64,000 nucleotides of DNA from NCBI RefSeq assembly GCF_000718165.1, contig NZ_JOEY01000037.1:65218-129217 (forward strand), given 5' to 3'. Source of the stretch: Streptomyces fulvoviolaceus. GTDB lineage: Bacteria > Actinomycetota > Actinomycetes > Streptomycetales > Streptomycetaceae. Below the pieces are notes generated by a model. The model did not search any database and was not told the origin of the DNA. It saw only the letters and a program-made list of their open reading frames with translations. A program made the position numbers and the translations under genes. Position 1 is the stretch's first letter; each line of letters starts with the position of its first letter. Below are positions 34,647-54,133 of this stretch, one piece after another.

Positions 34647-35822
34647 TCATCGGGAGCCGTGCAGACTGACGACCAGTTCGCGGGGCAGACCGTACGTGTC
34701 GTGCAGGTACTCGTAGTCCCGCTCGCTCAGCGGCCCCCGGTACTCCGTCCGGGACAGCAGCCGACGCCCCCGCTCCAGCAGCCTGTCGAACCGCTCCTCC
34801 TCTTCCAGGAGAACCTCGACGACGGAGTCCGTTCCGCAGGACAGCCGGAAGTGGTCCAGCGTGTGCTGCACGAGCTCCAGGGGCAGGTCGGACAGCGTGC
34901 GGGAGGGCTCGTCGCGCCGCAGGGAGGTCAGGACGCGGCGGACCAGCCGGCGCAGTACGTATCCGCGACCGGTGTTGGACGGCCGTACTCCGTCACCGAT
35001 GACGACGATGCCGGAGCGCAGGTGGTCGCAGACCAGACGCAGTGACGGTTCGTCCAGGTCCCACAGCGGCGGCAGGCACCGCATCCACGGTTCGAACAGG
35101 TCGGTGTCGTAGACCGAGTCCCGGCCCTGCAGCACGGTCACGAGGCGCTCCAGTCCCATGCCGGTGTCGATGCCGGGACGGTCCAGGGGGCGCAGGCTGC
35201 CGTCGTCCAGGCGGCGGTACCGCATGACGACGTGGTTCCAGATCTCCACCCAGCGCGGATCGGTTGTGGGCGTGCCGCGGGGCGGGGTGCCGGTGCCGCC
35301 GGTCCACACGAAGATCTCCGAATCGGGGCCGCACGGTCCGACGGGACCGTTGGACCACCAGTTCTCCTCCCGGGTGGGTTCCACGGGTACGCCCAACTCC
35401 TCCCAGGTGCGCAGTGATTCGAGATCGGGGCCGACCTGCTCGTCCCCGCCGAAGACCGTGACGTGGAGCCGCTGGTCAGGGATCCCGAAGCCGTCACGGA
35501 GCAACTCGTAGCCCCAGCGCAGGCTTTGGGAGTGGCTGTAGTCGCCCAGCGACCATGAGCCGAGCATCTCGAACACGGTGAGGTGGCTGGAGTCACCGAC
35601 CTCTTCGAGATCGGTGGTCCGCAGACAGCGCTGGACGTTCACCAGCCGCCGGCCCTGAGGATGAGGGCGGCCCTCCAGATACGGCGTGAGCGGGTGCATG
35701 CCCGAGGTCGTGAACAGCACCGGGTCCGAGGGCGGTGGCAGCAAGGTGCTTCCGGTGACGAGCCGGTGTCCGCGCTCGCGGTAGAAGTCGGTGAAGACGC
35801 GCACGGTCTGGTCCGTGTTCAT
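34647..35822 (-). CDS. Stand-alone alanyl-tRNA synthetase catalytic core
   Basis: A 391-aa protein that aligns with the first part of AlaRS: FTTSGMHPLTPYLEG, VGDSSHLTVFEMLGSWSLGD, GPCGPDSEIF, GIDTGMGLERLVTVLQG and GRGYVLRRLVRRVL. It ends after YEYLHDTYGLPRELV, exactly where full AlaRS continues into the editing domain, so the HxxxH editing site and C-Ala domain are missing. It can activate alanine, and perhaps glycine or serine, but cannot proofread. Full-length AlaRS is normally about 890 aa. ATG 35822 has GAAGGAAC. It could be an antibiotic-resistant second copy or supply aminoacyl groups to an unusual reaction; not decided. Confidence 0.85.
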   Translation of the reverse strand: MNTDQTVRVFTDFYRERGHRLVTGSTLLPPPSDPVLFTTSGMHPLTPYLEGRPHPQGRRLVNVQRCLRTTDLEEVGDSSHLTVFEMLGSWSLGDYSHSQSLRWGYELLRDGFGIPDQRLHVTVFGGDEQVGPDLESLRTWEELGVPVEPTREENWWSNGPVGPCGPDSEIFVWTGGTGTPPRGTPTTDPRWVEIWNHVVMRYRRLDDGSLRPLDRPGIDTGMGLERLVTVLQGRDSVYDTDLFEPWMRCLPPLWDLDEPSLRLVCDHLRSGIVVIGDGVRPSNTGRGYVLRRLVRRVLTSLRRDEPSRTLSDLPLELVQHTLDHFRLSCGTDSVVEVLLEEEERFDRLLERGRRLLSRTEYRGPLSERDYEYLHDTYGLPRELVVSLHGSR

Positions 35823-41421: not shown

Positions 41422-43134
41422 ATGAACACGAGTCGCAGCAGAGGAAGCATGTGGCGCAGTGCCGCGCTGGCGGCGCTGCTGACCACGGGGGCGTTCACCG
41501 CGGCGTCCTCGGACGCCCAGGGAGAGAGTGCGCGAACCGAATCGCCCGTGGCATCGAGCGCCGGAGTGACCGAGTCGGTGGTGCGGGTGAAGGCGCCGCT
41601 GCCGGCCTCCTTCGGGGCCCGGCCGGCGGCATGCGACTGGCTGTCGTACCTGCGCTACCGGTCCTCCGAAGGCCCCGCGGCGTCGGCCGACGCCGACCGG
41701 ATCCTGGTCGCCCAGCCGGGCATCCTGGAGGGTGCCGGAGCCTTCGACAGCGTCGCGCGCAACACCGTGGCGCGCGCCGCGGAGCAGGGCCTGCACCTCG
41801 AGTTCTGGGCACTGGACCGGCGCTCCAACTGCCTGGAGGACCGCACCGGAATCGCCTCCGGCGACCAGCACACGGCCGTCGACTACTACTACCGCGGCGA
41901 ACAGGTCGACGGCCGCACCTTCGCGGGCTTCGTCGGCAACGACCGACTGGGGTGGATGGCGAAGCTGGGTATCGAGCAGACCGTACGGGACGAATACGAC
42001 CTGCTCACCGCTGAGTTGCCCGACCAGGCGCTGCGCAAGGAGAAGGTGCTGTGCGGCGGCCACTCGCTCGGCGGCGTCATCACCGGCTACTTCGCGACCG
42101 CCGACTTCGACGGGAACCCCGCCACCACCGCCGACGCCGGACACAACCAGTGCGCCGGCTACTTCGCCCTCGACACCACCGTCTCCACCTCCCTCGCCGA
42201 CCTGAGCGGCAGCATCCCGGACGACACCAACCTGCCCGACGTGGGCCTCGGTTACGGCGTCGTGCAGGCCGGGCTCGACAGCGGAGTCCTGCCGCGCTCG
42301 CTGTCCGCGCCGGTCCTGCTCAATCCCGAGACCATGACCCTGCTGGCCATCGCCGGAGTGGGTGCCGTACAGGATCCGGGAGGCGAGGCCGACCTGCCGA
42401 GCTATCTGCCCGCCAACACCAACATCGAGGCCACCAACCGCTTCCTCTTCTCCGAGGACACCGCCACCTTCCTCACCGGCTCACCCGCGGTGAAGGACTT
42501 CCGGCTCACCAACGAGGCCGTACTCGGCTCGCTCATGGACGACCACTCCGTACCACTGGCGTTCCTGCAGAGCAGCGTCGGCTTCTTCGACGGCGGACCG
42601 ATCGCCGACAAGAACTTCCCCGTCGGCAACGGCAGTTCGCAGCAGCCGGGCCTGTTCGGCATCGAGTACAAGGCCATCCCGGACCAGCCCCACGGACCGC
42701 TGTACACATGGCGCAATTACGACCGCGTCGGCGACGCGGACGACCCCGGGTACCGGTCGGCCGACGGGACCCCCTTCACCGACGCGGGCAAGGAGGTCAC
42801 CGACATCCAGGAGCTGGCCCGCAGCCTGGCCGAGCAGCCACTGGACTTCACCGAGCAGTACTTCCCGACCAAGCTGGTCACCGACCTCCAACTGGCCACC
42901 TCCCCGCAGGTGAAGCAGCTGATCGTGCACCCGGAGGGGCTCACCGCCAACCCGACGCTCACCGTCCTCGCGGGCGACGGGCTGCTGGCGGGCCGTGTCC
43001 CGTCCGACCTGCACCCCGTCGTCGCCGACGGCTACCAGCACCTCGACGTGCTGACCGCGGCGCCGGTGCAGAACAACGGCCGGCCTGAGCCCGTCTCCAC
43101 CAGCCTCGCCAGGTTCGCCCGGTCCCCGCAGTAG
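41422..43134 (+). CDS. Secreted alpha/beta hydrolase
   Basis: A 570-aa protein with a signal peptide (MWRSAALAALLTTGAFTAA) and an alpha/beta hydrolase core. The nucleophile is Ser215 in CGGHSLGGVITGYF. No family name can be given with certainty; esterase or lipase is likely. There is no ribosome site at ATG 41422, but TACCGT ends exactly six bases before it, which suggests a leaderless mRNA; ATG 41449, with GAGGAA upstream, would start right at the signal peptide and is also possible. A strong bidirectional terminator lies beyond the stop. Confidence 0.75.
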   Translation: MNTSRSRGSMWRSAALAALLTTGAFTAASSDAQGESARTESPVASSAGVTESVVRVKAPLPASFGARPAACDWLSYLRYRSSEGPAASADADRILVAQPGILEGAGAFDSVARNTVARAAEQGLHLEFWALDRRSNCLEDRTGIASGDQHTAVDYYYRGEQVDGRTFAGFVGNDRLGWMAKLGIEQTVRDEYDLLTAELPDQALRKEKVLCGGHSLGGVITGYFATADFDGNPATTADAGHNQCAGYFALDTTVSTSLADLSGSIPDDTNLPDVGLGYGVVQAGLDSGVLPRSLSAPVLLNPETMTLLAIAGVGAVQDPGGEADLPSYLPANTNIEATNRFLFSEDTATFLTGSPAVKDFRLTNEAVLGSLMDDHSVPLAFLQSSVGFFDGGPIADKNFPVGNGSSQQPGLFGIEYKAIPDQPHGPLYTWRNYDRVGDADDPGYRSADGTPFTDAGKEVTDIQELARSLAEQPLDFTEQYFPTKLVTDLQLATSPQVKQLIVHPEGLTANPTLTVLAGDGLLAGRVPSDLHPVVADGYQHLDVLTAAPVQNNGRPEPVSTSLARFARSPQ

Positions 43135-43155: not shown

Positions 43156-43185
43156 GGGCCCGGGAGGATCTCGCCTCCCGGGCCC
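43156..43185. terminator. 12-bp perfect hairpin between convergent genes
   Basis: GGGCCCGGGAGG and CCTCCCGGGCCC pair with a 6-base loop between the hydrolase and the cutinase stop codons. Confidence 0.8.
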
Positions 43186-43206: not shown

Positions 43207-43848
43207 TCAGACCTTGCCGGCGGCGAACGCGGCCGCCGCGTCGGCGTCGGCGGAGTAGCCGAGGTGCGCCAGGGTGTCGTCCCCGCCGCTCTCGCAGACG
43301 GGGTCGCCCTCGGCGCAGAAGTCGATCGTGCGGCTCTGGTAGACGCCGGTAACGCTCTTGCCGAGCGCCCGGATCGGGTTGCCGAACAGGAGCACCGCCG
43401 CGACCCTCGGTTCCAGCGCGGCGGGAATGGTGGCCACGATGGGACTGCCGACCACCGCGCCGGCACTGCTGATGCCGATGGAATTGTCGACGACGTTCGC
43501 CCCCTGCGAGTACCCGACGAGGATGAAACGCTGATTCGGGCAGGCGGATGCCTGGCTGTTGACGTGGTTCACCAGGTCCGTGTTGCCCTGTGCGGCCGAG
43601 GTGAGGGAAAGGTCCGCGGGATAGTTCACCGCGTAGCTGGAGAGATTCCGGCCCGTCAGTTTCTTCTGCAGGGCGGAATACACGGGGTCACCGACGATCA
43701 GGCCGAGCGTGCCCGGCTCGAACGTGCCGCGGGCTGCGACGACGTCGATGTCCGAGCAGGCGGCACCCGATGCCGTGGGAGCCGAGAGGGTGACCAGTCC
43801 GGCCCCGCCGGCCAGCGAGAGCGCGGCGAGGAACAAGCGAATACGCAT
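43207..43848 (-). CDS. Cutinase family protein, secreted
   Basis: A 213-aa cutinase-type serine hydrolase with a signal peptide (RLFLAALSLAGGAGLVTLSA, cleavage near ASG-AA). The triad is Ser114 in GYSQGANVV, Asp182 in CAEGDPVCESGG and His195 in LAHLGY. Disulfide cysteines at 31, 103, 178 and 184 match cutinases. The family hydrolyses cutin, polyesters or, in mycobacteria (Rv3802c/Culp6), phospholipids and thioesters in the mycolate pathway. ATG 43848 has AAAGG upstream. It lies at the end of the PKS region beyond a PucR regulator gene. Confidence 0.88.
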   Translation of the reverse strand: MRIRLFLAALSLAGGAGLVTLSAPTASGAACSDIDVVAARGTFEPGTLGLIVGDPVYSALQKKLTGRNLSSYAVNYPADLSLTSAAQGNTDLVNHVNSQASACPNQRFILVGYSQGANVVDNSIGISSAGAVVGSPIVATIPAALEPRVAAVLLFGNPIRALGKSVTGVYQSRTIDFCAEGDPVCESGGDDTLAHLGYSADADAAAAFAAGKV

Positions 43849-43988
43849 GGGGATCCTTTGCGGGTGGGGCGCGTGAAGCGCCTTCTGAAAGGGCACCCCG
43901 AACGTATTCGCATGACCGATTCGATGGTTATGGACGGGAATTCAGAAATTCCTCGCCCTTTTGTGTCGACGTGAGTGAGGAGAACTTC

Positions 43989-45218
43989 TCACGTGGTGAA
44001 TGTGTCATTGTCCTGCAGGGCCTCGGAGCGCAGGGCCAGAATGAGGTCGAGGCGGGTGTCGGGATCGTGCAGGGCGTCACCGAAGAGCTTCTCCAGCTGG
44101 CGCAGGCGATAGCGGACCGTCTGCGGGTGGACGTGGAGGCGGGCGGCCACGTCGGGCACGTTGCTGCCGCTGAGCAGCCAGGCCAGCAATGTCTCGGCGA
44201 GACGGCCGCGCTGCCCCTCGGACGCCGCGTCGAGGGGATGGAGGACCCGTGACCGGAGCTGGGCGAGCATCGGTTCGTCGCTGTGCAGCAGAAAGGTCGA
44301 CAAGTGGTCGGCACAGCGCACCACGCCCTGCCGGGGGAGGATCCCGCGCCCCATCAGGCCCAGGGCCCGGGTGGCCCAGCCCAGGGACCGGGCGGCCTCG
44401 GCGAGCGGGACCGTCGGGCCGATCGCGGCGGGCCGGCCGCGCAGCGCGAGGACGAACGCCCGGCTGGCGAACCGTCCGGAGCCGTCGGGATCGGGCACCA
44501 GCATGCGCGGCGGCCGGGACTCCATGTCCACCAGCGCCCCCGCGGCCGCCAGGGGCCGGTCCTCCTCCCGATGGTCCGGGGTGGCCGCGAGCGCGACGAC
44601 CGCGACGTGCCTCGGGACCGACCACCGGGCGCCGTGCGCCAGGTCCTGCACCGCCTCCACGGAGACCGGTCCCTCGCCCAGCAACAGGTCGAGCAGGCGC
44701 CGCCGGCGCCGTTCCAGCTCGTCCGTGCTGCTCAGCTGAGCCTCCGCGTACCCGGCCGCGGCCGCCTCCGCGACCTCGTGCACGGTGCGGAACGCGAGCT
44801 CGCCCAGCGCGGCCACGACCGCGGAGTCGAGGCCGAGTTCCTCCGCCGTACGGCCCATCAGCCGCCAGGCGTGCAGCCCGCCGACCCGCAACGCGGACTG
44901 CAAGGCGTCCAGGCTGCGGCCCTCCTGCGCCTCGCCACGCCCGAGCTCGTAGTACGTCGCGGCGATCGCGTCCCACCGGCCGCGCGGGTCGGCGATGTGG
45001 TCCACGAACAGGGTGAGCGCCTGCACGACCCCGGCTCTGAGGTGGGCCCGGTGCGTCCCGTCGGCCGGCCGGGCGTACTCCGGAACCTGTCCGCGCACCT
45101 CCTCCTCCACCTCGTCGGCCACGGCCTCCAGTTGGGCACGCAGCAACTCGGCCAGGTCGGGCGGCACAAGGGCGGCACCGAGACCGTCCGGCACGCCGTG
45201 CGGGGTGGGGGACGCCAC
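43989..45218 (-). CDS. PucR/CdaR-type transcriptional regulator
   Basis: A 409-aa regulator with a C-terminal PucR HTH: NVPDVAARLHVHPQTVRYRL RQLEKLFGDAL is broken here only for length. The central region (SLGWATRALGLMGRG) is the GGDEF-like PucR linker. GTG 45218 has AAAGGAGGG, a strong site. PucR/CdaR regulators often control operons for adjacent metabolic genes and bind acyl- or sugar-type ligands. A hairpin separates it from the esterase gene, so it is probably transcribed on its own. Confidence 0.85.
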   Translation of the reverse strand: MASPTPHGVPDGLGAALVPPDLAELLRAQLEAVADEVEEEVRGQVPEYARPADGTHRAHLRAGVVQALTLFVDHIADPRGRWDAIAATYYELGRGEAQEGRSLDALQSALRVGGLHAWRLMGRTAEELGLDSAVVAALGELAFRTVHEVAEAAAAGYAEAQLSSTDELERRRRRLLDLLLGEGPVSVEAVQDLAHGARWSVPRHVAVVALAATPDHREEDRPLAAAGALVDMESRPPRMLVPDPDGSGRFASRAFVLALRGRPAAIGPTVPLAEAARSLGWATRALGLMGRGILPRQGVVRCADHLSTFLLHSDEPMLAQLRSRVLHPLDAASEGQRGRLAETLLAWLLSGSNVPDVAARLHVHPQTVRYRLRQLEKLFGDALHDPDTRLDLILALRSEALQDNDTFTT

Positions 45219-45250
45219 GGCAGGCCCTCCTTTCACCCGGAAGCGGTTCA

Positions 45251-45272
45251 CCCACGGGCTGATGCCCGTGGG
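45251..45272 (-). terminator. Hairpin after the PKS operon
   Basis: CCCACGGGC and GCCCGTGGG form a perfect 9-bp stem with a 4-base loop, 68 bases beyond the esterase stop on the minus strand and 33 bases before the PucR start. Confidence 0.6.
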
Positions 45273-45340
45273 GCGAGGGGCAAGTCCTGTGTTGGACGGA
45301 CGTCCCCTGCGCTGCGTTCCGTGCCCCGACGGCACCGACA

Positions 45341-46273
45341 TCACTCCGCCACCCCCAGCGCACCGGCGAGCATCGGCCACGACGCGGTGAACTCCTGTTT
45401 CCAGTAGGCCCAGCTGTGTCCTCCTCCTGCGTAGAAGTGGGTCGTGACCGGGATGCCGAGCAGCGCCAGCGTGTCGGTGAAGGCGTGGGCGGAGGGCCAC
45501 AGGGCGCTCTCCAGCGCCTCGGGCAGCCAGTCCCCGGTGCCGCCGGCAAGCCCGCTGCCGTTGGAGACGTACAGGGCGGTGCCGCGCAGCCCCTTGGCGC
45601 GGGCCCGCGGGTTGAAGTCGCGCCAGGTGAGGAGATTCAGGAGCGGACTGCCCCAGAGGGAGTGGGCTGCCAGGTTCTCGCGGGCCACGATGGCGTCCAT
45701 CAAGGTGGGCACACCGGGTGCGGTGGTGTCGAGGATTCCGCTGTAGGAGGCCGCCGCGGCGAACGCCCCCGGATGACGTGCCGTGTGCGCCATCGCCCCG
45801 TAGCCACCGGTGGACACCCCTGCCACGACCCGTACACCGGACGCCCGGTAGTCGCGGGCGAGCAGCGCGGGGACCTCCTCGACCTGGAAGGTCTCGTAGT
45901 CGGGGCCGCTGCGCCAGGCGGTGGGAATGCCGGTGGGGCCCGCGTCCGGCATCGCCACGATCAGGTCCCGGCCCTCGGTGAAGGCCTCGATGTCCGTCTC
46001 CCGGGTCCAGGACGTGTAGTCGTCGTGGGCGCCGTGCAGCAGATACAGGACGGGGTAGGTCCGGCCGGGCTGCGTGTCGAAGCCCGACGGCAGGATCAGC
46101 CGTACCGGCGCACTGCCGCCCAGGGCGGCGGAGGACAAGGACACGTCGAGTGTGCGCGGCCCGAGTCGCGTGGCGGCGGTGGCAGGCCGGGCGCCGAACA
46201 GGACGGCCAGACCGGCGGCCGCCGCGGCCTTGGTGACGGTGCGTCGGGACACTCCGGTGGTGCGGTGGGGCAT
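45341..46273 (-). CDS. Tat-exported Ag85-fold esterase (PF00756)
   Basis: A 310-aa protein with a Tat signal (SRRTVTKAAAAAG, Arg10-Arg11, cleavage near ATA-AT) and an esterase D/Ag85 alpha/beta fold. The nucleophile is Ser154 in AGVSTGGYGAM, the general base His286 in AGGGHSWAYW; VLYLLHGAHDDYTSW carries the oxyanion strand. In mycobacteria the Ag85 (Fbp) proteins of this fold move mycolates to trehalose or arabinogalactan. Here the enzyme starts 16 bases after the PKS stop and is probably translated from the same mRNA, so a transferase or hydrolase acting on the PKS product outside the membrane is the obvious idea. GGAGAG precedes ATG 46273. Confidence 0.85.
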   Translation of the reverse strand: MPHRTTGVSRRTVTKAAAAAGLAVLFGARPATAATRLGPRTLDVSLSSAALGGSAPVRLILPSGFDTQPGRTYPVLYLLHGAHDDYTSWTRETDIEAFTEGRDLIVAMPDAGPTGIPTAWRSGPDYETFQVEEVPALLARDYRASGVRVVAGVSTGGYGAMAHTARHPGAFAAAASYSGILDTTAPGVPTLMDAIVARENLAAHSLWGSPLLNLLTWRDFNPRARAKGLRGTALYVSNGSGLAGGTGDWLPEALESALWPSAHAFTDTLALLGIPVTTHFYAGGGHSWAYWKQEFTASWPMLAGALGVAE

Positions 46274-46289
46274 GGCGGCTCTCCTCGGA

Positions 46290-49200
46290 TCACGTGCGGT
46301 GGGTGCCCTCGGCGAGCTCCCGCCGCAGATGGGCGGCGATCTCGTCGACGTGCGGCGGGTCGAGCAGCGACAGATGGTGCCCCGCGACCGGTACGACCGT
46401 CAGGCGCGGGCATACCTCGTCCCACCCGAGCGCCTCGTCGTCCCGTTCGTACGCGGGGTCGCGCACGGTGTGCGGAGCGGGCTCGGTGGCCCGGTACAGC
46501 ACCACACGCCCGCCGTGGCGGCGGGGGCGGTGGGCCTCGCCGGTCCGCAGGTCCAGGTAGGAGGCGCGCTGGTGTTCCAGTGCGGCCGACGGCACGGCGC
46601 CGGACGAGCGCAGGATCCGCAGCACGGTGTCGATGCGCTCGCCGTCGTCGTCCATCGCGACCAGTTCGTCGTACGGCAGTTCCAGCCGGACTCCGTAGGC
46701 GTCGGCGACATGGCGGGCGAAGCCTGTGAAGTGGGCGCGGATCCGGTCGGCCGGTGTGTGATCGGGCTGGGGGAGGGGCCGTACGGAGTCGATGAGCACC
46801 ACCAGCTCCACGTCCCGTCCCGCGGCGGTGAGCTGCCGTGCGGCCTCTTGGGCGACGAACCCGCCGAAGGACCAACCGGCCAGCAGGCAGGGCCCGTTGG
46901 GATGGGCGGTGGCGACGGCCTCGGCGTAGCGACGGGCCTTGTCGGTCACTGTGGGGGCGTCTTCGAGCCGCTCCAGGCCGTACACCGGGCGCTCGTCCCC
47001 GAGCCGCTCGGCGAGCGTCCGGTAGACGTCGGTCGTGCCGCCGGCGGCGTGGACGAGGAAGAGCGGGGCCCCGGAGCCCGAGGCGCGCAGAGTCCGCAGC
47101 GGGTGGGCCGACTCGCCTGTGGAGAGCGCCTGTTGGAGGAGATCGGAGACGTTGTCGACGGTGGCCGCGCCGAGCAGATCGCGCAGCGGCAGTTCGATCC
47201 GGAACTCGCCTTCCAGGGCGGTACGGATCCGGACGGCCATCAACGAGTCGAGGCCGAGGTCGGTGAGGGCGGTGGTGGGGGTGACGCGGGTCGCCGGGTG
47301 ACCGGTGACGGTGGCGATGTGGTGGCGCAGGCGGGCGGCGACGGAGGTGTCCTCCGGTGCGGCGGCCTCCTCGGAGGACACCGCTGTGGTGGGCGTCGTA
47401 CGCCCGTCCGTCCACCAGTGCCGGACGTGCCGCCAGCGGGGCGCGGGCAGGTCGATGACGCGCCCCGGTGGCAAGGGCAGGCGTCCGCCCGCGCAGTACA
47501 GGGCGCCCACCTGGGTGAGGAAGTCGGCGCAGCCGCAGGCGTCCCGGCGCAGCGTGCCGACGACGAGGGTCCCGGGAGCGGTGTCGGTGAGGGCCCGGGT
47601 CAGGACCGGGTGGGGCGAGATCTCGACGAAGGCGGTGTGGCCGTCGGCCGCGGCCGACGCGACGGCCTGGTCCAGACGCACGGGCCGCCGCAGGTTCGCG
47701 GCCCAGTGGGCGGCGTCGAACACGCAGTCGCCGCGTGGGTCGTCCAGGACGGTGGAGTAGACGGGGACGCGGGGCGGCCCGCCCTGGATGTGGTCCAGGG
47801 CGTCGGTCAACTCGGCCAGCAGTGGCTCGACTTGGGGCGAGTGTCCGGCACCGACGACCCGCATGGCGCGGGCGACGCGTCCTTGTCGCTCCAGCCGGCG
47901 TACGAGCCGGCCCACCGCCTCCTCCTCGCCGGTGACGACCTTCTGCCCGGGCGAGGAGTGGACGGCGACATGCACACCGGGGAACTCCTGGAACAGGGCG
48001 TCGAGTTCACCGTCGTCGAGGTCGACGACGGCCATCGCACCGCCGCGCAGCCCGCTGAGCAGCCGAGCCCGTAGGGCGACGACCCGGGCCGCGTCCGACA
48101 CGTCCAGCGCACCGGCGCACACCGCGGCGGCCACCTCGCCCAGGGAGTGGCCGATGACGGCGGCGGGTTCGACACCGTACGCACGCCACAGCTCGGCGAG
48201 CGCCACCTGGAGGCCGAACAGCACGGGCTGGGCCACCTCCAGACGGTCGAGATCACCGCCGGACGCGAGGTGTTCGTACAGGGACAGACCGCACTCCGCG
48301 GTCAGCTGCCCGTCGAGCTTCTCCACGATGGCGGCGAAGACGGGATCCTCGGCCAGCAGACGCTGCCCCATGCCGACCCACTGGCTGCCGTACCCGGAGA
48401 AGACCCACACCGGGCCGCGCCCCACGAGATCACGCTCACCGGTCACGACCCGGGCGTGCGAGCGGCCCTGCGTCAACGCGGCCAGCCCGTCCGCGAGTTC
48501 GGTACGGTCACCGGCGACCACCGCGGCACGCAGGGGACCTCGCCCGGCGCGCCCGGCGAGCGTACGGGCGATGTCGGCAGGCTGCGCGGCATGCCCCTGG
48601 GGCGTACCGAGCCAGTCGGCCAGCCGACCCGCGGTGTCCCGGACGCGTGCGGTGTCGAGGTCGGAGAGGAGGTGGAGGCGGGCGGCCGGCTCACCGGTCG
48701 GAGCCGCCGACGGCAGCACGCCGGGCCGCCATTCCTCCAGCACCGCATGGGCGTTGGCCCCGCTGAAACCGAACCCGGAGACCCCGGCGGTGGCCGTCCC
48801 GCCGTAACGCGGCCACGGCTCGCACTCGGACACCACCCGCAGTCGTACGTCGTCCAGGGAACTGCCTCCGGTGCAGTGCAGGGACGGCGGAACGAGGTCG
48901 TGGTGCAGTGCGAGGACCGTCTTGACCAGCCCGGCGATGCCCGCGGCGGACTCCAGATGGCCGAGGTTGCCCTTGACGGAACCGAGGAGCAGTGGCTGAT
49001 CCGGGTCGCGGTCCGCACCGAGCACCCTGCCGAGCGCACCCGCCTCGATCGGGTCGCCGAGGGGGGTACCGGTGCCGTGCGCCTCGACGTGGTCGACGTG
49101 CCCCGGGGGGAGCCCGGCCCGCGCGTACGCCGTCGTCAGAAGAGCCTGCTGGGCCGCGGGGTTGGGAGCCAGGAGGCCGTTGGAACGGCCGTCGGAGTTG

Positions 49201-50270
49201 ACGGCCGTGGCGCGGATGACGGCGAGGACCCGGTCGCCGTCCCGCTCGGCGTCGGACAGCCGCTTCAGAAGCACGGCCGCGCATCCCTCGCCGCGTCCGA
49301 TGCCGTCGGCTGCCGCCGAGAAGGGCTTGCACCGCCCGTCCGGCGCGAGAGCGCCCGCCCGCCGGAACGCGACGGTCACGGCGGGGGAGAGCAGCACGTT
49401 GACCCCTGCGGCGATCGCGGTGTCGCTCTCGCCCGTGCGCAGGCTGACACAGGCGTGGTGCACGGCGACCAGCGAGGAGGAACAGGCGGTGTCGACGGCC
49501 ATGCTCGGCCCGCGGGCGTCCAGCACGTACGCCAGCCGGCCCGCGGCGACGCTCAGTGCCGCACCGGCCGGTGCCCAGGGATCCACGGCTGCCGGGTCGG
49601 CTCCGGTGAGCGAGCCGTACTCCGGGGCGGAGACTCCGACGAAGACACCCGTGGCGGTGCCGGCGAGGGACGCGGCAGGGACGGCGGCGTGGTCGAGGGC
49701 CTCGTGGACGACCTCCAGGAGGATCCGCTGCTGCGGATCCATCACCGCGGCCTCGCGCGGGGTGATGCGGAAGAAGTCCGCGTCGAACCCGGCGATGTCG
49801 TCGAGGTAACCGCCGTAGGGAAGGGCGTCGGCGGGCGGGAAGGCGGTGAAGTCGCGCCAGCGGTCCTCGGGGACCCGCCGGATCGCATCCACGCCCTCGC
49901 TCAGCAACCGCCAGTAGTCGCCCGGGCCGTGCACACCCCCGGGCAGCCGGCACCCGACCCCGATGACGGCGACGGGCTCGCCGGGCAGCCCGGGTGCCAC
50001 TGGGGGAGTGGCCTGTGCCTTTGCCGCGGTACGGCCGCACAGATGCGCCACCAGGGCATCTCCGGTGGGCGCCTCCCACAGCAGCGTCGCCGGCAGTTCA
50101 CGGCCCGTGGCCCTGGAGAGCTCACCGGCCAGGACGACCGCGTCCCGCGAGGACATGCCGAGGTCCGCCAGCGGCCGGTCCATCGGGACGTCCTCGGCGG
50201 CCGTGCCGCTCCAGGCGGCCACCCGGTCCAGGATCAGACGGCGTAACGCGCTCTCGTCGGCGGCCCTCAT
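46290..50270 (-). CDS. Pks13-like type I polyketide synthase, ACP-KS-AT-ACP-TE
   Basis: The 1326-aa synthase has the rare order ACP-KS-AT-ACP-TE of mycobacterial Pks13. N-terminal ACP: LADLGMSSRDAV, phosphopantetheine Ser41. KS: Cys263 in DTACSSSL, His398 in EAHGTGT and His438 in KGNLGH. AT: Ser709 in GHSLGE. C-terminal ACP: Ser1009 in LGLDSL. TE: Ser1134 in AGWSFGG, His1298. No KR, DH or ER. In Pks13 the N-ACP takes an acyl chain from FadD32, the AT takes a carboxyacyl chain, and the KS makes an alpha-alkyl beta-keto acid. It is about 400 aa shorter than Pks13. The ATG overlaps the FAAL stop (ATGA). Codon 9 is TTA (50244-50246). Confidence 0.92.
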   Translation of the reverse strand: MRAADESALRRLILDRVAAWSGTAAEDVPMDRPLADLGMSSRDAVVLAGELSRATGRELPATLLWEAPTGDALVAHLCGRTAAKAQATPPVAPGLPGEPVAVIGVGCRLPGGVHGPGDYWRLLSEGVDAIRRVPEDRWRDFTAFPPADALPYGGYLDDIAGFDADFFRITPREAAVMDPQQRILLEVVHEALDHAAVPAASLAGTATGVFVGVSAPEYGSLTGADPAAVDPWAPAGAALSVAAGRLAYVLDARGPSMAVDTACSSSLVAVHHACVSLRTGESDTAIAAGVNVLLSPAVTVAFRRAGALAPDGRCKPFSAAADGIGRGEGCAAVLLKRLSDAERDGDRVLAVIRATAVNSDGRSNGLLAPNPAAQQALLTTAYARAGLPPGHVDHVEAHGTGTPLGDPIEAGALGRVLGADRDPDQPLLLGSVKGNLGHLESAAGIAGLVKTVLALHHDLVPPSLHCTGGSSLDDVRLRVVSECEPWPRYGGTATAGVSGFGFSGANAHAVLEEWRPGVLPSAAPTGEPAARLHLLSDLDTARVRDTAGRLADWLGTPQGHAAQPADIARTLAGRAGRGPLRAAVVAGDRTELADGLAALTQGRSHARVVTGERDLVGRGPVWVFSGYGSQWVGMGQRLLAEDPVFAAIVEKLDGQLTAECGLSLYEHLASGGDLDRLEVAQPVLFGLQVALAELWRAYGVEPAAVIGHSLGEVAAAVCAGALDVSDAARVVALRARLLSGLRGGAMAVVDLDDGELDALFQEFPGVHVAVHSSPGQKVVTGEEEAVGRLVRRLERQGRVARAMRVVGAGHSPQVEPLLAELTDALDHIQGGPPRVPVYSTVLDDPRGDCVFDAAHWAANLRRPVRLDQAVASAAADGHTAFVEISPHPVLTRALTDTAPGTLVVGTLRRDACGCADFLTQVGALYCAGGRLPLPPGRVIDLPAPRWRHVRHWWTDGRTTPTTAVSSEEAAAPEDTSVAARLRHHIATVTGHPATRVTPTTALTDLGLDSLMAVRIRTALEGEFRIELPLRDLLGAATVDNVSDLLQQALSTGESAHPLRTLRASGSGAPLFLVHAAGGTTDVYRTLAERLGDERPVYGLERLEDAPTVTDKARRYAEAVATAHPNGPCLLAGWSFGGFVAQEAARQLTAAGRDVELVVLIDSVRPLPQPDHTPADRIRAHFTGFARHVADAYGVRLELPYDELVAMDDDGERIDTVLRILRSSGAVPSAALEHQRASYLDLRTGEAHRPRRHGGRVVLYRATEPAPHTVRDPAYERDDEALGWDEVCPRLTVVPVAGHHLSLLDPPHVDEIAAHLRRELAEGTHRT

Positions 50271-51997
50271 CCCTGGCTCCCCACCGCGTAGGCGCCCGCC
50301 AGATACCGCTCCCGGGTCCGCGCCCGCGACACCTTGCCGCTGGAGGTACGCGGCACGGTGCCCGGAGGGACGAGGACGATGTCGGCGAGCCGCAGCCCGT
50401 GCCGCCCGGAGACGGCCGCCCGCACGGCACGCACCAGCTCCGGTACGTCGATCCGGGCGAGGCTCGTCGTCCGCACGTGCTCGGCCACCACGACCACCCG
50501 CTCACCGGAGCCGCCCGGTACACCGAAGGCGGCGAGCCGGTCCCGCCGTACGGCCGGATGCGCGTCCTGCGCCGTGCCCTCCACGTCCTGCGGGTAGTGG
50601 TTGCGGCCGTCGACGACGATGAGGTCCTTCAGACGCCCCGTGACGATCAACTGCCCGTCCAGGACCGTCCCCAGATCACCGGTGCGCAGCCAGGAACCCG
50701 GGGCGCCCGGGAGCACGGCGCCGAACACGCGCCGGGTGTGCTCGTCCTGTCCCCAGTAGCCGCGCCCCACATTGGGACCCTGCACCAGGATCTCGCCGAC
50801 CTCCCCCTCGGACAGGACGGCATGGCTCACGGGATCGGCGATACGGACCCGCTGCCCCGCCGGAGTGCCGCAGCCCGCCAGCACCACGGCCCTGGGGTCG
50901 TCGGGCCGCGCGGGCAGGGCCTTCCCGGCGGCGAGGGCGTCGCGGTCGAGTGCGAACCGGCCGAGCGGCTGCCCGGGGCGGGAGGCACTGACGAAGACAG
51001 TGGCCTCGGCGAGCCCGTACGACGGACAGTGGACGTCCGGTGCGAGCCCCTGTCCGGCGAAGGCGGCGTGGAAGCGGTCGGCCGTGTGAAGGCGGACCGG
51101 CTCGCTCCCGTTGATCAGAGCGGCGACGCCGTCCAGCCGCAGATCCGCCTTCTGCGCGTCGGTCACGGTCGACGTGCAGTAGTCGTAGGCGAAGTTGGGT
51201 GCCGCGCTCAGCGCGCGCGGATGCGCGGCCAACAGCCTTAGCCAGCGCACCGGTTCGTGCAGGAACGCGGCCGGATCCATGAGCACTGACAGCAGACCCC
51301 GCACCACCGGGGCGGCGACACTCAGGACGAGCCCCATGTCGTGGTAGAGCGGCAGCCAGCCCACGCAGGTCACCGGACGGGTGTCGGCACCGTAGGCGGA
51401 CAGCGCCTGGCGGGCGTTGGCGACGACGTTGGCGTGGCTGATCTCCACGCCGGCCGGGGTGCGGGTCGAGCCGGAGGTGTACTGGAGGTACGCGACCCTT
51501 TCGCCGACCGGCTGCCACGCTCCGGCGGCGGCGTCGGGCACCTGATCGACGGCGACGATCCGCACCGGCGTCTCATCGCAGAAATCCCGCACCGCCTCCA
51601 GGATTTGACTTGTCGTCACCACGACGGTCGCACCGGCATCGGCCAGGACGGCCGAGAGCCGCTCCGCCTGCCCGGGCAGATGGGGCGGATACAGCGGCAC
51701 GGCGACCAGGCCGGCGGCCAGCGCCCCCAGGAAGCCGGTGACGTACTCCGTCCCCTGCGGGCACAGCAGCGCGACCCGCGCCCCGGGCTCCGCCTCCGCG
51801 GCGAGCCGGGCGGCCACCGCCCGCATGCGCAGATCCAGACGCCGCCAGGTCAGCGTGCGGTGGACACCGCGCGAGTGCGCGGCGGGATGGTCGACGAAGG
51901 TGAACGCCCTGCGGTCGGGAGTGGTTTCGGCCCAGTGCCGCACGTACTCGGGCAGACTTCGGCACGTGGGGACGAGCGGGGGGCGGCGGCTGTCCAT
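50267..51997 (-). CDS. FadD32-like long-chain fatty acyl-AMP ligase (FAAL)
   Basis: A 576-aa adenylate-forming enzyme. The P-loop is YTSGSTRTPAG (173-183), the adenine-binding SYGLAEATVF follows at about 326, and Lys555 in RTSSGKVSR is the catalytic lysine. RNHYPQDVE near 465-473, in place of an acyl-CoA-ligase motif, marks a FAAL: it makes acyl-AMP and hands the acyl group to an ACP instead of CoA. The natural partner is the N-terminal ACP of the PKS encoded next, with ATGA overlap. AGGAG lies upstream of ATG 51997. It precedes the PKS and follows the carboxyltransferase, as in the fadD32-pks13-accD4 group, though in different order. Confidence 0.92.
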   Translation of the reverse strand: MDSRRPPLVPTCRSLPEYVRHWAETTPDRRAFTFVDHPAAHSRGVHRTLTWRRLDLRMRAVAARLAAEAEPGARVALLCPQGTEYVTGFLGALAAGLVAVPLYPPHLPGQAERLSAVLADAGATVVVTTSQILEAVRDFCDETPVRIVAVDQVPDAAAGAWQPVGERVAYLQYTSGSTRTPAGVEISHANVVANARQALSAYGADTRPVTCVGWLPLYHDMGLVLSVAAPVVRGLLSVLMDPAAFLHEPVRWLRLLAAHPRALSAAPNFAYDYCTSTVTDAQKADLRLDGVAALINGSEPVRLHTADRFHAAFAGQGLAPDVHCPSYGLAEATVFVSASRPGQPLGRFALDRDALAAGKALPARPDDPRAVVLAGCGTPAGQRVRIADPVSHAVLSEGEVGEILVQGPNVGRGYWGQDEHTRRVFGAVLPGAPGSWLRTGDLGTVLDGQLIVTGRLKDLIVVDGRNHYPQDVEGTAQDAHPAVRRDRLAAFGVPGGSGERVVVVAEHVRTTSLARIDVPELVRAVRAAVSGRHGLRLADIVLVPPGTVPRTSSGKVSRARTRERYLAGAYAVGSQG

Positions 51998-52070
51998 CGG
52001 GCATGGCTCCTCACGTCGTGCGATACGGCGTCGCGAAACGTCTGCGATCGGCTGGGGAGGGACGGACCGG

Positions 52071-53624
52071 TCAGAGCGGGATGTTGCCGTGCCGGCGCTC
52101 CGGCATCGGGGCACGCTTGCCGCGCAGCGCACGCAGGGCACGGCAGATCTGGGCGCGGGTGTCACTCGGGGCGATCACGGCATCGACGTAGCCGCGCTCG
52201 GCGGCCAGATAGGGCGTGCCGTACGTGCTCTCGTACGAGGCGACGAGACGGGCCCGCAGCGCCTCGGGGTCGGCGGCGGCCGCGAGTTCACGCCGGTGCA
52301 GGACACCCACCGCGCCCTCGGCGCCCATCACGGCGATCCGCGCGGTGGGCCAGGCGAAGTTGAGGTCGGCGCCCAGGTGCTTGGAGCCCATCACCGCGTA
52401 CCCGCCGCCGTACGCCTTGCGCACCACCACCGTGACCTTCGGGACGGTCGCCTCGGCATAGGCGTACAGCAGCTTGGCGCCGCGCCGGATGATCCCGGCC
52501 TGCTCCTGACGGACGCCGGAGAGATAGCCCGGGACGTCGGCGAAGGTCAGCAACGGGATGCCGAACGCGTCGCAGAACCGTACGAAGCGCGCGGCCTTCT
52601 CGGAGGCGTCGATGTCCAGGACTCCGGCCGCGTGCAGCGGCTGGTTGGCGACGACCCCGACGGGATGTCCCTCCACGAGGGCCAGCGCGCAGATGATGTT
52701 CGGCGCGAACAGCTCCTGGACCTCGAGGAGTTCGCCGCCGTCGACGACCGCGCGCAGGACGTCGCGCATGTCGTAGGCCTGCCCGAGCCGGTCCGGCACG
52801 ATGTCGTCGAGCGGCACGTCGACGGGCACCGGAGCGGGCGCGTACTGCGGGGGCCGCTCCAGGTTGTTGGCGGGCAGGTACGACAGCAGGTCGCGTACGG
52901 TGTCCAGGGCCTCCACCTCGTCGGCGGCGAGGAAGTGGGCGTTGCCGTTGAGGGAGTTGCTGGTGCGGGCGCCGCCCAGCTCCTCGGCGCTGGTGCGCTC
53001 CCCGGTGACCGCCTCGATGACGTCGGGGCCGGTGACGAACATGTGCGAGGCGCCGTCCACCATCACGGTGAAGTCGGTGATGGCCGGCGAGTACGCGGCC
53101 CCACCGGCGCACGGCCCGAGGACGACGGAGATCTGCGGGATCACCCCGGACGCCTGCACGTTGCGGCGCACCAGCTCGGCGTAGAGGGCGAGCGAGGTGA
53201 CGCCCTCCTGGATGCGGGCGCCGCCGCCGTCGTTGAGCCCGATGACCGGGCAACCGGTCTTCAGGGCGAGGTCCATGAGGGCGACGGTCTTCTCGCCGAA
53301 GGCCTCGCCCATGCTGCCGCCGAAGACCGTCGAGTCCTGGGCGAACACACAGACCGGACGGCTGTCGACGGTGCCGTACCCGGTGACCACCCCGTCTCCG
53401 TACGGCCGACGGGCACCGTCCCCGGCGGGCCGGGCCCGGACGAACAGCCCGGTCTCGGAGAACGACCCCGCGTCCAGCAGCAGGTCGATCCGCTCCCGGG
53501 CACTGAACTGACCTCGTCTTCTGGGCCCGTTCCCGGCCACCGCCTGTGCCCTGCGGGTCTCCAGCGCGAGGACGCGGTCGGTGGTGCGGTCGGGCACATG
53601 GATCGTCGTCACCTCTAGTGTCAC
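52071..53624 (-). CDS. Acyl-CoA carboxylase carboxyltransferase (AccD4-like beta subunit)
   Basis: A 517-aa carboxyltransferase with the two crotonase-like halves. The biotin/acyl-CoA sites are FGEKTVALMDLALKTGCP and GGGARIQEG in the first half, and DVPGYLSGVRQEQAGIIR and YGGGYAVMGSKHLGAD in the second. It should transfer CO2 from a biotinylated alpha subunit, not encoded here, to an acyl-CoA. In mycobacteria AccD4 carboxylates the C24-26 chain for Pks13. GTG 53624 lies five bases after GGAGG and is preferred. It is the first gene of the operon; the FAAL gene starts 73 bases later. Confidence 0.88.
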   Translation of the reverse strand: MTLEVTTIHVPDRTTDRVLALETRRAQAVAGNGPRRRGQFSARERIDLLLDAGSFSETGLFVRARPAGDGARRPYGDGVVTGYGTVDSRPVCVFAQDSTVFGGSMGEAFGEKTVALMDLALKTGCPVIGLNDGGGARIQEGVTSLALYAELVRRNVQASGVIPQISVVLGPCAGGAAYSPAITDFTVMVDGASHMFVTGPDVIEAVTGERTSAEELGGARTSNSLNGNAHFLAADEVEALDTVRDLLSYLPANNLERPPQYAPAPVPVDVPLDDIVPDRLGQAYDMRDVLRAVVDGGELLEVQELFAPNIICALALVEGHPVGVVANQPLHAAGVLDIDASEKAARFVRFCDAFGIPLLTFADVPGYLSGVRQEQAGIIRRGAKLLYAYAEATVPKVTVVVRKAYGGGYAVMGSKHLGADLNFAWPTARIAVMGAEGAVGVLHRRELAAAADPEALRARLVASYESTYGTPYLAAERGYVDAVIAPSDTRAQICRALRALRGKRAPMPERRHGNIPL

Positions 53625-54133
53625 AGCCACCTCCGAAGTGGCCTTCGAATATGGCAGCGCAGCGGGGGCGGGCCGAGCCGAACGCCCGTGCGTTTGCGTG
53701 AGGTGAGTCCTGAGGGGGCGGCCTTCGTCCGCGGGTGACAAGGGTCTGTGCGGGACGAGGGCGTCTCCTGTGCACTGCTTTTGAGACAAACTGGCTGGAG
53801 AAAAGGTGCAGACCTAATCCGTGGCGCGCTCTTTTCGCAGGCCGTGCGGCGCTGAAGCCCGGCGTCGAAGTACGCGAATGAGTCAGTGTCAGGAAACGAA
53901 TCGACCCGCCGGTTGATAGTTCAACGGGCGCGCTGCAAGAATCCCCACCCGACCCCGTCGTCACCCATCGACGTACAGGTCGGCTGCCGAACAGGGCCCC
54001 CAGTCCGCCGCAATTCCAATAGCGCGAATTTCGGATTCACGAACCCCCCACAAAGTCCGCACAGAGCACGACTGCGGCGTGCCCTCGCACGCCTTCCGGT
54101 TGCGCGGCACGAAGCAGCAAAGAAGGTGCATCG
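53625..54133. other. Promoter region of the PKS operon, no gene
   Basis: These 509 bases separate the carboxyltransferase start from the divergent DUF485 gene. No open frame keeps coding bias. A short inverted repeat CGAAG/CTTCG lies at 53634-53647 next to the carboxyltransferase start, and a loose GTTGA/TCAAC palindrome at about 53912-53925. No clear -35/-10 pair was found. Such a long leader is a plausible place for regulator sites. Confidence 0.45.

Follow-up and report, generated by a model that had tools for sequence, protein, structure and literature searches.

Does a Streptomyces carry out the kind of two-chain condensation by which mycolic acids are made, in a genus that, to our knowledge, makes no mycolates? 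The question is raised by six genes in the 11.6 Mb genome of Streptomyces fulvoviolaceus (assembly GCF_000718165.1). They lie at 43207-53789 of the 64,000-nucleotide stretch analysed here (contig NZ_JOEY01000037.1, positions 65,218 to 129,217; 71% GC), hereafter the window, and run in the same direction on the minus strand, encoding an acyl-CoA carboxylase carboxyltransferase (CT), a fatty acyl-AMP ligase (FAAL), a polyketide synthase (PKS), an esterase, a PucR-type regulator and a cutinase. A sequence-only reading of this DNA had likened five of the products to the mycobacterial proteins AccD4, FadD32, Pks13, Ag85 and Rv3802c, and had guessed that they make a different alpha-alkyl beta-keto lipid. 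That guess is still the best reading. We consider it probable that the block makes such a lipid by a predicted Claisen condensation of the mycolate type and that it likely passes the product to an extracellular acceptor.

Composition and conservation of the block

All six genes were found at the places and on the strand first proposed, and the Pfam matches and the FAAL motif agreed with the functions assigned. The CT gene (AccD/PccB family, 52071..53789; Pfam Carboxyl_trans, 605.9 bits) stands first in the direction of transcription; its start codon is uncertain, and the GTG at 53624 chosen in the sequence-only reading is plausible. The FAAL (50267..51997) contains the hallmark string RNHYPQDVE, an AMP-binding domain (Pfam, 207 bits) and a DIP2-like C-terminal domain, and the best of the NCBIfam FAAL models matched it at 556 bits; its frame is open to 52165, and the ATG at 51997 is preceded by AGGAG. 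The FAAL stop codon and the start codon of the synthase gene (46290..50270) overlap in ATGA. The secreted esterase/acyltransferase (45341..46273; PF00756 esterase, 99 bits) overlaps the regulatory gene in the same way in TGATG. The PucR-family gene (43989..45341; Pfam HTH_30, 71 bits) has a frame open to 45500 and a start near 45341, and a secreted cutinase-family esterase (43207..43896; Pfam Cutinase, 141 bits) ends the series.

When named genomes were scanned with the synthase, 58 loci were recovered, of which 56 lie in Streptomyces and two in Mycolicibacterium. As the loci were picked by the synthase, with best segments 74-87% identical, the conservation described here is conservation within one genus; the denominators are the loci with enough flanking sequence. 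The AccD-type CT and the FAAL were each found in all 52 Streptomyces loci that could be tested for them, the esterase in 51 of 51, the PucR gene in 50 of 50 and the cutinase in 48 of 48. All partner copies found in these loci sit on the expected strand, and their order around the synthase is fixed. The concern, voiced in the sequence-only reading, that the block might be conserved nowhere else is thus dispelled for other Streptomyces. On the far side of the CT gene, an SSF transporter gene and a YceI gene were considered as further members and rejected, as only 5 of 48 testable loci have the former and 6 of 47 the latter.

The invariance of this order in all testable loci, despite variable upstream flanks, speaks against an ordinary orphan PKS that happens to have unrelated esterases beside it, and so does the location of the esterase close to the synthase in three further family groups (f17, f18 and f35). 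PF00756 esterases and cutinases are generally known to occur elsewhere in Streptomyces, and the host genome contains one other match to the esterase, 41% identical, as a chance association would allow. We regard this explanation as hardly credible.

Among 61 sampled Streptomyces genomes, the host's own included, the synthase was found in the host and five others at 79-100% identity (approximately 79-82% in the others). Two more of the 61 carried a full-length synthase at 56-57% identity, and in one the match, at 54%, was a longer relative. Of 60 genomes sampled across the class, four of them Streptomyces including the host, just one outside the genus gave a strong match (G113, 57% identity over residues 6-957); a further relative (G114) was overlooked by the synthase search and had to be recovered with the Pks13 model. 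The plant pathogens S. scabiei, S. turgidiscabies, S. ipomoeae and S. europaeiscabiei are among the carriers of the synthase, along with many soil species and the non-pathogenic S. coeruleorubidus ATCC 13740 and S. lincolnensis. A search of the open-access literature by title and start of abstract, outside which subscription journals and preprints lay, returned no paper describing the block.

The synthase and its relation to Pks13

The synthase is a type I PKS of 1326 amino acids. Pfam placed in it two stretches of PP-binding, ketoacyl-synt, Acyl_transf_1 and Thioesterase, and alignment of the N-terminal acyl carrier protein (ACP) with that of Pks13 bore out the proposed order of ACP, ketosynthase (KS), acyltransferase (AT), ACP and thioesterase (TE). 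Neither a ketoreductase (KR) nor a dehydratase (DH) domain was found by Pfam in the 1326 residues. The N-terminal ACP (50031..50270) carries an SSRDAV-type motif that aligns with GLSSRDAV of the Pks13 N-terminal ACPs; it is followed by the KS (48873..49979), the AT (47493..48410) and a C-terminal ACP with the motif GLDSLMAVRI (47136..47333), identified by Pfam and by comparison with PDB chains.

The clearest likeness to Pks13 lies in the TE (46308..47066). When the C-terminal ACP plus TE was compared with PDB chains, seven Pks13 sequences came out on top (142-183 bits), and the next protein scored 85. In a panel of 192 proteins this TE was found in the clade of the window synthase (the window clade), in its diverged relatives and in Pks13, and in no other protein. 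Both results sustain the view of the domain as a Pks13-type TE. NF040607, the Pks13 model, was the best NCBIfam match of the synthase, at 1190 bits and thus below the curated cut-off of 2100; this score alone does not discriminate, because the model also gives 979 and 1054 bits for two PpsA-like proteins.

The KS domains were compared in a tree of 111 rows, from which matches covering fewer than 370 positions, including L095 and L125, were left out. The window clade, its relatives, Pks13 and PpsA-like proteins formed a group of 19 rows with 98% SH-aLRT support, and the neighbour of this group consisted of 24 modular KS rows. In a tree of the combined KS and AT domains (47 rows, three of 50 having been dropped as no AT lay near the chosen KS), a split with 95% support had on one side 34 rows, namely the window clade, the rows linked to a crotonyl-CoA carboxylase/reductase (CCR), Pks13 and the relatives with a KR, and on the other the PpsA-like and modular PKS proteins. 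Within it, the 11 Pks13 rows formed their own 100% group, with the window and CCR rows outside, and this group was placed among the KR-bearing relatives with 84-94% support. In topology tests, a grouping of window, CCR and Pks13 rows was not rejected (approximately unbiased [AU] test, p = 0.371), and a grouping of window, CCR and PpsA-like rows was nearly rejected (p = 0.0585).

In both trees the synthase falls on the Pks13 side, apart from the modular PKSs sampled, contrary to the possibility, allowed for in the sequence-only reading, that its KS would group with ordinary modular PKSs. The trees and the AT residues described below led us to discard an ordinary modular PKS as its identity. Membership of the Pks13 family proper was discarded as well, given the score below cut-off and the position outside the 100% group. 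As judged from these comparisons, the synthase would work like Pks13, yet is not Pks13 by descent. Some sources give proteins of this kind the name "phthiocerol/phenolphthiocerol synthesis type-I polyketide synthase" A or D, for which the TE and the AT residues offer no support. The host genome also encodes, on contig 35, a 2655-amino acid protein with FAAL-like, ACP, KS and AT parts, whose KS groups with ordinary modular PKSs (L080, G000).

Comparison with Pks13 and PpsA systems

The likeness to the mycolic-acid cassette (FadD32-Pks13-AccD4 with PS1/Ag85) extends beyond the Pks13-type TE: a FAAL, a synthase of ACP-KS-AT-ACP-TE order, a CT with an alanine in its pocket, a mycoloyltransferase-type esterase and a cutinase stand in one locus, and the AT shares with Pks13 an aromatic residue and a GAGH/GASH motif. 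There are also differences. The window synthase is shorter (1326 amino acids, up to 1638 in its clade) than the 11 Pks13 rows, which are open frames of 1609-1888 amino acids. Pks13 has a pseudo-dehydratase (DH*) and a non-functional ACP according to PMC11649247, and the window synthase has no room for this DH* between the AT and the C-terminal ACP. The gene order is AccD-FAAL-PKS-esterase, with a PucR gene in addition, and the FAAL and the CT belong to lineages different from those of the cassette.

The lineage of the FAAL bears on a second explanation, a PpsA-type starter module in which the FAAL loads a long chain, a single extension follows and the polyketide is handed on or released in the manner of phthiocerol. 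Against the NCBIfam model of FadD32 the FAAL scored 500 bits (cut-off, 975), and in a tree the window FAALs formed their own group outside FadD32; the FadD32 identity first assigned could not be upheld, and orthology was rejected on both counts. In that tree the window group and the PpsA-like FAALs lie together on one side of a branch that has FadD32 on the other (100/97). Both non-Streptomyces loci of the named scan are mycobacterial and have a FAAL beside an ACP-first PKS; we take these and other unnamed rows to be PpsA-like, a label of our own. The PpsA/FadD26 starter system thus resembles the block in a FAAL adjoining an ACP-first PKS and in a related N-terminal ACP and KS, and the forced grouping with PpsA-like rows was not quite rejected, as noted above. 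PpsA differs in having no TE and an AT with GQG and VASH, and in being followed by more PKS proteins. Consistent with this difference, the TE was absent from three PpsA-like proteins, whose ATs have Gln and VASH, and the conserved block includes no further PKS partner. A starter module of this kind is therefore very unlikely. The FAAL is unique in the host genome at E ≤ 1e-40, and it is kept in seven of eight diverged loci, that is, those of the more distant relatives of the synthase.

AT residues and the second substrate

The AT of the window synthase has FSGYGSQ and GAGH at positions where ordinary ATs have GQG and YASH or HAFH, YASH being the signature of methylmalonyl-specific and HAFH that of malonyl-specific ATs. 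These positions were tallied in 522 AT domains from 394 of 422 proteins; the AT was not used for choosing or labelling the rows, which are related and not independent. The first residue was Gln in 253 of 261 AT domains of PKSs lacking this TE and in all four PpsA-type domains, Tyr in 120 of 121 window-clade domains (the other having His) and Phe in 11 of 11 Pks13 domains. At the second position, GAGH was found in all 121 window-clade domains, and the Pks13 domains had GAGH (6), GASH (4) or GSSH (1). The other proteins with a Pks13-type TE (n = 123) had Tyr in 100, His in 12, Phe in 7 and Gln in 4, and GAGH in 91. An aromatic residue in place of Gln, together with GAGH, gives the AT of the synthase clade a Pks13-like character, suggesting a pocket that fits a bulkier alkylmalonyl unit.

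The gene that would supply this unit was found to vary. An AccD gene is present in one of the eight diverged loci (L125, 62% identical to the window AccD), and a CCR gene replaces it in five (L077, L078, L079, L124 and L171), the CCR being identified by TIGR01751 scores above cut-off in the three loci tested. Loci L172 and L173 keep the FAAL, the synthase and the esterase, with no AccD or CCR gene found nearby that would supply their second substrate. In PMC5187497, an acyl-CoA carboxylase route to alkylmalonyl-CoA is described as an alternative to CCR. We take the exchange of AccD for CCR to be the strongest evidence from gene context for alkylmalonyl-CoA as the second substrate.

The CT itself is closer to PccB. 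It scored 696 bits with Streptomyces PccB and 519 bits with PDB chain 9t97_D4a, which we read as AccD4, and it fell outside the clade (99/100) formed by the ten CTs linked to Pks13, which we likewise label AccD4. Its best PDB match is 3ibb, named in PMC5187497 as a D422A mutant of PccB. The pocket motif was checked in 20 rows, of which 18 gave it and the distant paralogues L158 and L159 did not. Where PccB has D422, alanine stands in all five window-clade rows and all ten Pks13-linked rows (GG[GA]YAVM) and also in L125, and both PccB-like paralogues of the host genome have Asp (GGAYDVM). The proposal of an AccD4 therefore holds for the pocket residue and fails for descent, and orthology was rejected on the tree. 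Streptomyces MccB (SamR0483), as presented in PMC5187497, is also a PccB-like CT that binds larger acyl-CoAs and supplies alkylmalonyl units; MccB is tied to extender supply for modular PKSs, and the window CT sits in a block with a FAAL, a TE-bearing PKS and an esterase.

The same evidence can be turned to a third explanation, in which a fatty acid is joined to one short alkylmalonyl unit (ethyl to hexyl), giving a small alpha-alkyl beta-keto acid or a lactone, furan or ester derived from it. The product would be a signal or an antibiotic and not an envelope lipid, and the secreted hydrolases would serve for tailoring or self-protection. The alkylmalonyl-CoA provided by a CCR is usually short or medium in length, and it is a CCR that stands in the place of AccD in the five diverged loci; GAGH alone leaves the chain length unfixed, and the block is accessory, the synthase (at approximately 79-82%) occurring in 5 of the 60 other Streptomyces genomes sampled. 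What stands against a short polyketide is the company the synthase keeps: the PS1-type esterase is its most constant partner (8 of 8 diverged and 51 of 51 Streptomyces loci), and both this esterase and the Pks13-type TE are tied to long lipids in known cases. We consider it unlikely, and prefer the alpha-alkyl beta-keto lipid of the mycolate type.

Secreted esterases and neighbouring genes

The esterase has a serine elbow, an HSWxYW motif and a signal that is, by eye, twin-arginine-like. Its nearest solved relative is the mycoloyltransferase PS1 of Corynebacterium (124.9 bits, E = 4e-35), followed by 4rgy (80.4 bits), another plain esterase (66.9), Cmt1 (66.4) and Ag85C (54). In a tree of 32 rows it grouped with PS1-type proteins, in its own 100/100 subgroup, with Ag85-type proteins across a 100/99 branch; the PS1-type label on otherwise unnamed rows is our own assignment. 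The description as an Ag85-fold esterase needs correction, the nearer relative being PS1, not Ag85C. The window esterase lacks the long C-terminal extension of one Pks13-linked PS1-type protein. A review states that Ag85 genes occur only in mycolate-positive species (PMC6194230). In the diverged loci a relative of the esterase lies within approximately 6 kb of the synthase in every case, though not adjacent to it in L172 and L173, and is more constant than any gene for extender supply.

Beyond the cutinase gene, a perfect 12-bp inverted repeat (GGGCCCGGGAGG/CCTCCCGGGCCC, 43156..43185) lies between convergent genes and likely marks a transcription boundary. The convergent gene (41422..43134, plus strand) encodes a secreted protein of 570 amino acids with a GGHSLGG nucleophile-elbow motif and without a curated family, and is kept in 45 of 48 testable Streptomyces loci, making it a possible associate of the block. 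No significant match to this hydrolase-like protein was found in Pfam (only Abhydrolase_5, E = 0.067) or the PDB, and its structure model (pLDDT 39.7) was unusable for a fold search. Farther away, at 34647-35822 on the minus strand, a protein of 391 amino acids has tRNA-synt_2c as its sole Pfam match (296 bits) and resembles a stand-alone paralogue of alanyl-tRNA synthetase.

Proposed pathway

What the sequences show directly is gene content, synteny, domain order, active-site motifs and family placement. From these and the parallels with Pks13 we infer the product, the substrates and the lengths of their chains, and likewise the acceptor, the way out of the cell and what becomes of the ketone, which a reductase encoded elsewhere might reduce, along the following route. 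The FAAL would activate a fatty acid as acyl-AMP and load it onto the N-terminal ACP. The AccD-type CT, with shared biotin subunits, would carboxylate a second acyl-CoA to alkylmalonyl-CoA, and the AT, whose pocket lacks the residues of malonyl and methylmalonyl types, would load this unit onto the C-terminal ACP. The KS would couple the two chains with loss of CO2, and the TE would release the beta-keto product; as with Pks13, the recipient would probably be a small polar molecule. Streptomyces fatty acids being of approximately C14-C17, two such chains would give alpha-alkyl beta-keto acids of roughly C28-C34, esters of these or, after decarboxylation, ketones. The exported PS1-like esterase may then transfer or hydrolyse the acyl group, the cutinase may trim or recycle the acyl product, and PucR would control the gene set. 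Streptomyces also join two fatty chains, one of them carboxylated, by a Claisen reaction in the formation of lipstatin (lst), which relies on FabH-like enzymes in place of a type I PKS.

Several points weigh against this route. GAGH-type ATs could also accept short alkylmalonyl units, which would lead to a small metabolite and not to a two-chain lipid. By their sequences, the FAAL and the CT group apart from their mycobacterial counterparts; the plain esterase 4rgy, at 80.4 bits, ranks ahead of Cmt1 and Ag85 for the window esterase; and the cutinase scored 22.8 bits against a Culp6 cut-off of 570, by which both the proposed identity with Rv3802c and orthology to it were dismissed. The conserved block contains no MmpL-type exporter and no reductase, and searches of open-access papers brought up no such lipid made by the locus. 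Neither AccD nor CCR lies within approximately 20 kb in L172 and L173 (two of the eight diverged loci), and the contig of L078 stops approximately 0.8 kb past the FAAL, which limits the absence of AccD there. In another actinomycete family, an MMPL-family transporter (148 bits, L124:15-3566) lies approximately 6 kb from a related synthase and is a possible exporter.

A wider family of synthases with a Pks13-type TE

With the TE of the L125 synthase as the query, 1128 of 7983 scored proteins were matched at E ≤ 1e-3. The 120 of these that were listed are mostly of approximately 2000-2300 amino acids with a KR, and come from Amycolatopsis, Saccharothrix, Actinokineospora, Saccharopolyspora, Pseudofrankia, Actinopolyspora, Streptomyces and others. 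The 120 KR-type rows were collected by their TE, and its presence in all of them is by selection; their occurrence in these genera indicates that release domains of the Pks13 type extend beyond the mycolate makers. A homologue search with a KR-bearing relative mostly returned modular PKSs, which were used as outgroups, and the genomic surroundings of KR-bearing relatives were covered, as to a FAAL, an AccD or CCR and the esterase, for L079, L124 and L125. The minimal ACP-KS-AT-ACP-TE form was found in the window synthase, L077, L078 and L171-L173. Judged from these sequences, Pks13 seems to belong, as a single branch, to a broader actinomycete family. We are evenly divided on the more far-reaching proposal that actinomycetes outside the mycolate makers would hold an older and wider family of systems that condense two chains in the mycolate manner, with FAAL-primed synthases ending in a Pks13-type TE, a swappable AccD or CCR supply and PS1-type secreted acyltransferases. 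Mycobacterial Pks13 would be one branch of it, and Streptomyces would carry an undescribed class of alpha-branched lipids made by it.

The condensation that yields mycolic acids has been treated as a hallmark of one bacterial order, and the same logic would be found here in a Streptomyces block. The reading would explain a set of synthases that are currently named phthiocerol synthase or plain type I PKS, and would predict a new lipid class that could be found by mass spectrometry in harmless soil strains. Together with the TE-matched synthases of Amycolatopsis, Saccharothrix, Pseudofrankia and others, the Streptomyces block would give the mycolic-acid condensase an evolutionary context.

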